Part shown: piece after piece, positions 51,004-53,357 of the stretch
Numbering within the stretch: position 1 is the first letter of the stretch
Layout: each line of letters begins with the position of its first letter
NCBI RefSeq assembly: GCF_018687785.1
Contig: NZ_LTBL01000001.1
Location: forward strand, 921,780 to 985,779
Length of the DNA stretch: 64,000 bases
Reading direction: 5' to 3'
From: Methanovulcanius yangii
Lineage (GTDB): Archaea > Halobacteriota > Methanomicrobia > Methanomicrobiales > Methanomicrobiaceae
Notes under the pieces: generated by a model
Told to the model about the DNA's origin: nothing
Database searches by the model: none
The model's input: the letters and a program-made list of their open reading frames with translations, nothing else
Program-made: the position numbers and the translations under genes

Positions 51004-51154
51004 TGAATTACCATACTCAATGTGTCCGGGCCCTTATTAATAACTTGGAATGTTCTTACCCGACCTCTTTTCAGGGGACGTTGAAGGATCATCCGATCGG
51101 ACTGAATTGTCCATTTCGACATTTCCTAATATTCCCTGCGTCAACCATTATGCA

Positions 51155-51496
51155 ATGACAGATCATGTCCTGATGGAGATTGTCGGGTTCACCGACAGCC
51201 CCTGCGGTCCGTTTCCATGCGATGACACCCGGACCTGTGAACTGGAACGGTGCGCACCGAGTGAGAACCTTGAGAAGGCATACTCTGCCCTGCAGACGGA
51301 GATTGCAAAGGAATATGGTGACCGGGTCGAGATGAAACTGACCTGGCTCGATGATGAGGTTCCCAATTATATTATGGATATCGTTGAAGAACACCAGCCG
51401 CCGCTCCCCATCATTCTCATCAACGGGAAACTCGCTCCCATCGGCCGGATCTCACTGCCCCTGATCCGTGAAGCGCTCAATGCCGAACTGGACTGA
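51155..51496 (+). CDS. Thioredoxin-fold protein with a PCGPFPC motif
   Basis: A 113-residue protein. After a first strand (LMEIVGFTDSPC) comes the cysteine set PCGPFPCDDTRTCELERC, then a helix, a strand (VEMKLTWLD), and the cis-proline-type segment PPLPIILINGKLAPIGRISL. This order is that of thioredoxin-like folds, with C-x4-C in place of C-x2-C. A redox or metal role is likely, but no named family is recognised. The open frame extends 35 codons upstream; MTDHV was chosen because similarity to the fold begins there. Confidence 0.7.
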   Translation: MTDHVLMEIVGFTDSPCGPFPCDDTRTCELERCAPSENLEKAYSALQTEIAKEYGDRVEMKLTWLDDEVPNYIMDIVEEHQPPLPIILINGKLAPIGRISLPLIREALNAELD

Positions 51497-51803: not shown

Positions 51804-53357
51804 ATGGCATCATTCAAAATCACGAGTAAACTCAGGGAACTGGAATCACAGGTCGGAACCCTCTCGCCCATGCAGAAGATCCTTCTCGGCACGGACGGGT
51901 CGGTGACGACTCTACTTGAAAATGCCCTTGGATGTGAGGTGACGGTAAACACACTCTTCCAGGAGGTTGTGCCTGCGGATGAACGTGTTGCGTCATCGCT
52001 TGGTATCCGCACAGGAGAGCAGATCAACCACCGAATTATCACGCTCAATGATCGGGAGACGGGGAAGGCACTCCTGTATGCCGTGTCCGACACCCCGCTT
52101 TCCCGTCTGGACCCTTCGTTTCGCGATGACCTCATGCAGGCCGACATTCCCATTGGGAGGATCATGCAGAAGCATCATCTCGAGGCACGCCGTGAACTGA
52201 AGGAGGTACGAGCGTGCAGGGCTGATCCAGCCATCAGCGGCATCCTTGGAATATTCCGCCATGAACCACTCCTCTCACGCAAATACCATATCATCACCGG
52301 AGGAAAACCGCTCATTGCCATACGGGAGACCTTTCCCTACAGTAACTTTACCGATGAAAGCCGGGTGATCGTAGAGACTCCGTCACGGATTCACATGGGG
52401 CTCATCGACATGAACGGGAGCGCAGGAAGGGTCGACGGAGGGATCGGCCTCGCCATCGAAGACCCGGCCATCGTCATCGAGGCGAAAAGAGGCAGTGAAC
52501 TACGGGTGTGGTCGGATGAACAGAACACAAAGAATGCGGAACGGGTTAAACGGACGGCTGAGATAATTCTTGCCAGGCTGGGCGTCAGTGAAGGTGCTGA
52601 TATCATGCTCCACCACAGCTATTCCGGCCATATCGGTCTGGGAAGCGGCACCCAGCTCGATCTCGCCACGGCCCGTGCACTCTATGGGCTGTTTCGACCC
52701 GGCACGATCACCGTCCGGGAGATCGCGGCACTCACCGGGAGGGGAGGAACATCGGGGATCGGAACCGCGGCATTTGAGGCGGGGGGATTCATCATCGACG
52801 GGGGGCATAGCTTCGGCCCTCTGGGGGATAAGTCCGAGTTCAGGCCATCATCTGCCTCATCAGGGATAAAACCGGCACCGGTGCTCTTCAGGCACCCTTT
52901 CCCCGAAGACTGGCAGATTCTCCTGGCCATCCCGGACATACCCGAGGGCGCAAGTGGAAAAACCGAATCGGACATCTTTCGGACGCACTGCCCGGTTCCC
53001 ATCGGCGACGTCCGGGCGCTTTGTCATACGGTTCTCATGCAGATGCTCCCGGCTATCATTGAAAAGGATCTCGATCTCTTCGGATGCGCCGTGAACACAA
53101 TCCAGGAATACGGGTTCAAGCAGGTCGAACACCGCCTCCAGCCGCCCCTCATTCAGGACCTCATCGCAGCGCTCCGGACTACTGAAGCTGCAGGGGTCGG
53201 ACTGAGCTCCTTTGGTCCGACGGTGTATGCAATCGGTGACAACGGGATGCAGGACGCAGGAAGATGTGCCGAAGACGTCATGGCGAAGACGGGCGGAGGA
53301 CGGGTCATTCTTACCCGGGCACAGAACAGGGGAGCGGAGATCAGGGCCGCCCCATGA
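51804..53357 (+). CDS. mptG: Chorismate lyase-like (DUF98) domain fused to beta-RFAP synthase
   Basis: A 517-residue fusion. Residues 187-517 are beta-ribofuranosylaminobenzene (or hydroxybenzene) 5'-phosphate synthase, a GHMP-fold enzyme of methanopterin synthesis: TPSRIHMGLIDMNGSAGRVD, then SGHIGLGSGTQLDLATARAL, GRGGTSGIGTAAFEAGGFI and SSFGPTVYAI. Residues 1-185 match the DUF98 family of chorismate pyruvate-lyases (TDGSVTTLLENALGCEV, then ADIPIGRIM and KPLIAIRETFPYS). The first domain would make 4-hydroxybenzoate, and the second would use it. GAGGA precedes the ATG. The domain pairing is read from sequence; channelling is inference. Confidence 0.88.
   Translation: MASFKITSKLRELESQVGTLSPMQKILLGTDGSVTTLLENALGCEVTVNTLFQEVVPADERVASSLGIRTGEQINHRIITLNDRETGKALLYAVSDTPLSRLDPSFRDDLMQADIPIGRIMQKHHLEARRELKEVRACRADPAISGILGIFRHEPLLSRKYHIITGGKPLIAIRETFPYSNFTDESRVIVETPSRIHMGLIDMNGSAGRVDGGIGLAIEDPAIVIEAKRGSELRVWSDEQNTKNAERVKRTAEIILARLGVSEGADIMLHHSYSGHIGLGSGTQLDLATARALYGLFRPGTITVREIAALTGRGGTSGIGTAAFEAGGFIIDGGHSFGPLGDKSEFRPSSASSGIKPAPVLFRHPFPEDWQILLAIPDIPEGASGKTESDIFRTHCPVPIGDVRALCHTVLMQMLPAIIEKDLDLFGCAVNTIQEYGFKQVEHRLQPPLIQDLIAALRTTEAAGVGLSSFGPTVYAIGDNGMQDAGRCAEDVMAKTGGGRVILTRAQNRGAEIRAAP

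Follow-up and report, generated by a model that had tools for sequence, protein, structure and literature searches.

A chorismate-lyase-like domain fused to beta-RFAP synthase in archaea and its predicted role in the aryl branch of methanopterin biosynthesis

The source of the phenyl ring of methanopterin in archaea is disputed: it is traced either to chorismate or to an intermediate that precedes it in aromatic biosynthesis. The form in which the ring is used, p-aminobenzoate or 4-hydroxybenzoate, is disputed as well. Work by Porat et al. in 2006 on Methanococcus maripaludis (cited in PMC8305020) reportedly belongs to the debate on the origin of the ring. A gene of Methanovulcanius yangii, found in a stretch of 64,000 nucleotides that was analysed as a whole (the window), raises the question of whether a single polypeptide can both make the aromatic acid and commit it to this cofactor. 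The gene encodes a chorismate-lyase-like domain followed by a beta-RFAP synthase (RFAPS; Table 1). We put at about 0.85 the probability that its product is bifunctional and catalyses the first two committed steps towards the aryl-ribitol half of methanopterin. The N-terminal domain would convert chorismate to 4-hydroxybenzoate with removal of pyruvate, and the C-terminal domain would join 4-hydroxybenzoate to PRPP to give beta-ribofuranosyl-hydroxybenzene 5'-phosphate (RFAP-type), with loss of CO2 and pyrophosphate. We infer both reactions and the identity of the substrate, while the domains, their catalytic residues, the linkage of the genes and the presence of chorismate synthase are observed.

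The frame begins with ATG, and its start is not in doubt because a stop lies two codons upstream (open frame of 519 aa). Pfam assigns the N-terminal part to PF01947, the Rv2949c-like family formerly known as DUF98, with 79.3 bits against a curated cut-off of 22, in a match that covers almost the full profile (positions 1-143 of 149). The C-terminal part matches the NCBIfam beta-RFA-P synthase equivalog NF040726 over the full model (positions 2-327 of 327; E 6e-119, 396.9 bits, cut-off 328), and Pfam places GHMP-kinase N and C domains in this half. The first-pass annotation had seen the domains of both enzymes in one polypeptide, with a limit near residue 185 judged by eye. These matches above the cut-offs, and fold matches to AF1396 and ForT, bear out the first claim, and the domain search puts the boundary at 180-188. 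The cyanobacterial chorismate lyase equivalog NF037993 stays below its cut-off (27-31 bits against 175), and by this comparison the N-terminal domain appears as a relative of those lyases outside their subfamily. In the genome that contains the window PF01947 matches once and TIGR00144 twice; the second TIGR00144 match (73 bits) is a distant paralog at another locus. Upstream of the fusion lies a 148-aa frame (51050-51496, +) that has no Pfam or NCBIfam match; its end resembles, by eye, a thioredoxin-like tail.

Table 1. Features of the fusion gene, with positions in the window, and genomes of the same order in which both halves are missing.
Feature	Position	Strand	Basis
Fusion gene, DUF98/Rv2949c-like chorismate-lyase-like domain and beta-RFAP synthase, 517 aa	51804..53357	+	Open frame; Pfam and NCBIfam matches; AlphaFold2 model, pTM 0.87
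Chorismate-lyase-like domain, residues 28-179	51885..52340	+	PF01947 E 3.9e-22; 2NWI by sequence E 6e-37, by fold TM 0.94
R77, aligned with E. coli UbiC Arg76 (77 counting Met)	52032..52034	+	hhalign; R in 174/174
E175, aligned with UbiC Glu155 (156 counting Met)	52326..52328	+	hhalign; E in 177/178
Junction, residues 180-188	52341..52367	+	Secondary structure of the AlphaFold2 model; constant 19-residue spacing
Beta-RFAP synthase domain (GHMP-kinase fold), residues 189-513	52368..53342	+	NF040726 397 bits; ForT 6YQQ E 3.5e-30 (sequence alignment); fold TM 0.88-0.89
R195, equivalent of ForT Arg19 (PRPP phosphates)	52386..52388	+	ForT alignment, PMC8183095, conservation
H276, phosphate-binding turn, equivalent of ForT His99	52629..52631	+	ForT alignment, PMC8183095, conservation
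R313-G-G-T-S317, equivalent of ForT Arg135/Thr138/Ser139	52740..52754	+	ForT alignment, PMC8183095, conservation
E388, equivalent of ForT general base Glu211	52965..52967	+	ForT alignment, PMC9832568; invariant in the aligned set
Genomes without both halves: G103, G109, G111, G114, G119, G120, G121, G157			
Genomes without both halves, continued: G147, G088, G047, G050, G080, G024, G043 and others			

The whole chain was modelled by AlphaFold2 with 26 fused proteins (pLDDT 89.6, pTM 0.87), and Foldseek matched the N-terminal part of the model to AF1396 (PDB 2NWI, a DUF98 protein; TM 0.94, 1.6 A) and the C-terminal part to ForT (TM 0.88-0.89). ForT binds PRPP through Arg19, His99, Arg135, Thr138 and Ser139 (PMC8183095) and uses Glu211 as general base (PMC9832568). 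In the alignment, R195, H276, R313, T316, S317 and E388 of the fusion protein correspond to these ligands and to the base, and all are conserved.

The fusion reaches far beyond one genome, in age as well as in distribution. GTDB genomes that carry it belong to Methanomicrobiales, the order of the window, to Methanotrichaceae (Methanothrix/Methanosaeta) and to Methanoliparia (Methanolliviera, Methanoliparum). DUF98 occurs in 158 of 232 genomes of the order, nearly always in a frame of 500-600 aa that also holds RFAPS. Chance or an assembly artefact as the source of the fusion is ruled out by its occurrence in more than 100 independent genomes with constant spacing. Five genomes (G098, G137, G172, G097 and G083) of the order have DUF98 matches that seem unfused, but these reach the contig end and represent truncated fusions. 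Other families of the phylum encode DUF98 on its own, in a gene of about 160-200 aa. One family (f7; L200-L203) has RFAPS followed by DUF98 as neighbours on one strand, the opposite order to that of the fusion, with gene ends that overlap or nearly touch (overlapping frames in L200). The in-frame stops of DUF98 in another family (f10) are probably the genes' own, since the matches reach profile positions 146-147. A single origin of the fusion is rejected by neither domain tree (p-AU 0.32 and 0.65), and in the RFAPS tree the fused forms of Methanotrichaceae (f22) and of the window's order make up one supported group. At ten loci, inspected by eye and with a few Pfam checks, no conserved neighbours tied to methanopterin were recognised. 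Two Methanotrichaceae loci (L124, L133) have a prephenate dehydratase gene (PF00800) closely upstream of the fusion, on the opposite strand.

Presence and absence link the two halves beyond the fused form. Among 394 genomes of the phylum, 206 of the 209 with DUF98 also have canonical RFAPS, 52 of the 258 with RFAPS are without DUF98, and 133 have neither; this is a manual tally in which an E of 1e-80 or better was required for RFAPS to count as present. Fisher's test gives p ~1e-56 for the association, a figure overstated by the relatedness of the genomes. The first-pass annotation had taken the fusion as support for a route from chorismate. That route is supported for lineages with DUF98; it is not the only source, and the lyase is not universally needed, because many archaea have RFAPS without DUF98.

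Within the window's order, 33 of 135 good genomes are without DUF98, and 27 of these are also without canonical RFAPS (hand count). The other six make up one genus (f3 g17; L210-L213, L037) with a stand-alone canonical RFAPS of different ancestry, outside the order's fused group in the tree; judged from that tree, a gene from outside seems to have replaced the fused one, rather than a lyase domain having been lost. Two genomes of the order have DUF98 without RFAPS. In one (G070) a contig ends close to the frame, and in the other (G189:C1, about 817500-818100; L204:4037-4564, -) the RFAPS half is gone and a DUF98 remnant of 175 aa ends in ...FIEKQLS, with Lys at the position of E175. A dedicated pair predicts that the lyase decays once the synthase is lost, and a sequencing error in this one genome could produce the same picture. 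Both DUF98 and canonical RFAPS are absent from many genomes of the order that are complete or nearly so (Table 1), yet these genomes keep mptD (PF04038) in all cases tested and chorismate synthase in those tested. They pose a new puzzle, namely how methanopterin is supplied in complete Methanomicrobiales genomes that have mptD and neither enzyme. A distant RFAPS paralog in the window's own genome (G000:C1:465590-466516; L003) was considered as an alternative RFAPS and rejected: it has HGFET where RGGTS is expected, scores 88 bits where the cut-off is 328, and turned up in 21 of the 22 genomes examined in the order, both with and without the fusion.

The first-pass annotation had suggested that the intermediate passes directly from one enzyme to the other. 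The junction invites this stronger form of the bifunctional reading, in which a channel or tight relay between the fused domains would keep 4-hydroxybenzoate inside the protein. In the confident two-domain model the last lyase strand (168-178) leads almost directly into the first synthase strand (187-200) with no flexible linker, and the spacing from E175 to R195 is exactly 19 residues in 105 of 110 distinct fused proteins, a near-invariance that suggests coupling under selection. UbiC retains its product strongly, and a coupled partner could relieve that retention. However, the constant spacing may only reflect one fusion event, given the tree tests, and separate genes work in many archaea, so the fusion is not needed for the chemistry. 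A dedicated enzyme whose two sites are rigidly coupled, so that the lyase would relay 4-hydroxybenzoate to the PRPP-dependent synthase, is a less likely reading; the coupling would then be under selection, and Methanomicrobiales would keep or lose both halves as a unit. The model would fit such a relay, which on balance we consider doubtful. If it were true, a scarce methanopterin precursor would be committed before leaking.

Whether the N-terminal domain is catalytic at all has to be weighed against its overall shape. A fold search with this domain alone puts 2NWI at the top, followed by UTRA effector domains, whereas UbiC does not appear before rank 50; the chorismate lyase 1JD3 is matched with E 9.9e-6 and TM 0.63, and this match and that to 2NWI place the domain in the UbiC/DUF98 superfamily fold. 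Pfam also reports a UTRA match (E 3.7e-7). Both results would suit a non-catalytic, UTRA-like sensor of 4-hydroxybenzoate or chorismate that regulates the synthase. The fold by itself would not tell a lyase from a sensor, whereas the residues do; because the overall fold is nearer to UTRA than to UbiC, the case for catalysis rests on these residues and on the characterised Rv2949c. When 24 DUF98 domains, fused and stand-alone, were aligned with hhalign to E. coli UbiC from MG1655, a weak match (E 0.003 for one pair, probability 10%) set R77 and E175 against Arg76 and Glu155 (mature numbering), which we take to be the catalytic residues of UbiC. Both are kept: the Arg is present in every DUF98 sequence having that column, and the sole exception at the Glu is the decaying remnant in the genome without the synthase half (G189). 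They are kept even in stand-alone DUF98 relatives, which have no attached enzyme to regulate. The first-pass annotation had named two findings that would overturn its reading, a missing DUF98 match in the N-terminal half and loss of the catalytic Arg and Glu, and neither was seen. PF01947 moreover scores far above UTRA, and no helix-turn-helix (GntR-type DNA-binding) domain, as in a UTRA regulator, was found in the fusion protein with Pfam or NCBIfam. The family member Rv2949c is described as forming p-hydroxybenzoic acid in mycobacteria (PMC7205293). A sensor is on these grounds improbable, and a catalytic N-terminal domain is preferred.

The choice of substrate depends on what the genome can make. 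Chorismate synthase is present in the window's genome (E 2e-125), and a profile search detected no Chorismate_bind (TrpE/PabB) protein in this 96% complete assembly, which is suggestive of an inability to make p-aminobenzoate from chorismate. No more than one Chorismate_bind locus, which could be TrpE, was seen in any of the other genomes tested. Together, chorismate synthase and the missing TrpE/PabB homologue favour 4-hydroxybenzoate over p-aminobenzoate as the substrate. In a passage of PMC8183095 that cites White 2011, the enzyme of the C-terminal half is named after its hydroxybenzene product. Although published assays of that enzyme used p-aminobenzoate (PMC6787355), an N-terminal domain that acts on aminodeoxychorismate and feeds p-aminobenzoate to the synthase is highly improbable, since the window's genome shows no Chorismate_bind protein to make aminodeoxychorismate, the single locus elsewhere could be TrpE, and the Pfam family takes its name from chorismate pyruvate-lyases. 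Methanovulcanius yangii may itself be a tryptophan auxotroph, or the missing TrpE/PabB may reflect an assembly gap.

The succession of two steps proposed in the first-pass annotation thus gains backing from homology, active-site residues, the fusion itself, adjacency of the genes elsewhere and co-occurrence. The fusion is real and conserved, and it is probably a bifunctional enzyme assembled from two known families. In the literature searched, which left most subscription journals outside its scope, no paper was found that describes the fusion or links a chorismate lyase with methanopterin; domain databases probably already list this architecture. The joining of the lyase to the first committed enzyme in three archaeal lineages is a direct genetic argument for the conversion of chorismate to 4-hydroxybenzoate there, and DUF98 is likely the first gene of the methanopterin aryl branch in those lineages. 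The fusion makes the disputed source of the aryl part easy to test, and the protein might serve as a target for blocking methanogenesis.

Each half has known relatives. Among the closest to the lyase domain is AF1396 from Archaeoglobus fulgidus, which shares 44% identity and the same catalytic positions in addition to the fold, but which is a stand-alone domain in its structure. DUF98 is likewise stand-alone, and not adjoining RFAPS, in the surveyed genomes of family f9. UbiC from E. coli and Rv2949c from M. tuberculosis, the source of the PF01947 family name, share the superfamily fold and the aligned catalytic Arg and Glu, although the sequence similarity of UbiC to the N-terminal domain is marginal. 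These bacterial lyases feed ubiquinone or phenolic glycolipids rather than methanopterin. The C-terminal half is an equivalog-level match to the beta-RFAP synthases MTH0830, MJ1427 and AF2089, from which the fusion differs in that a lyase domain precedes the synthase; to our knowledge, the beta-RFAP synthases studied so far are single-domain proteins. ForT (PDB 6YQQ, 8AP0), an enzyme of formycin synthesis, shares the fold, the PRPP-site residues and the type of reaction, a decarboxylative C-C bond formation. It has no lyase domain, however, and its aromatic acid is a pyrazole dicarboxylate, with ForT Ser21, which holds the second carboxylate, replaced by His197 in the fusion protein.
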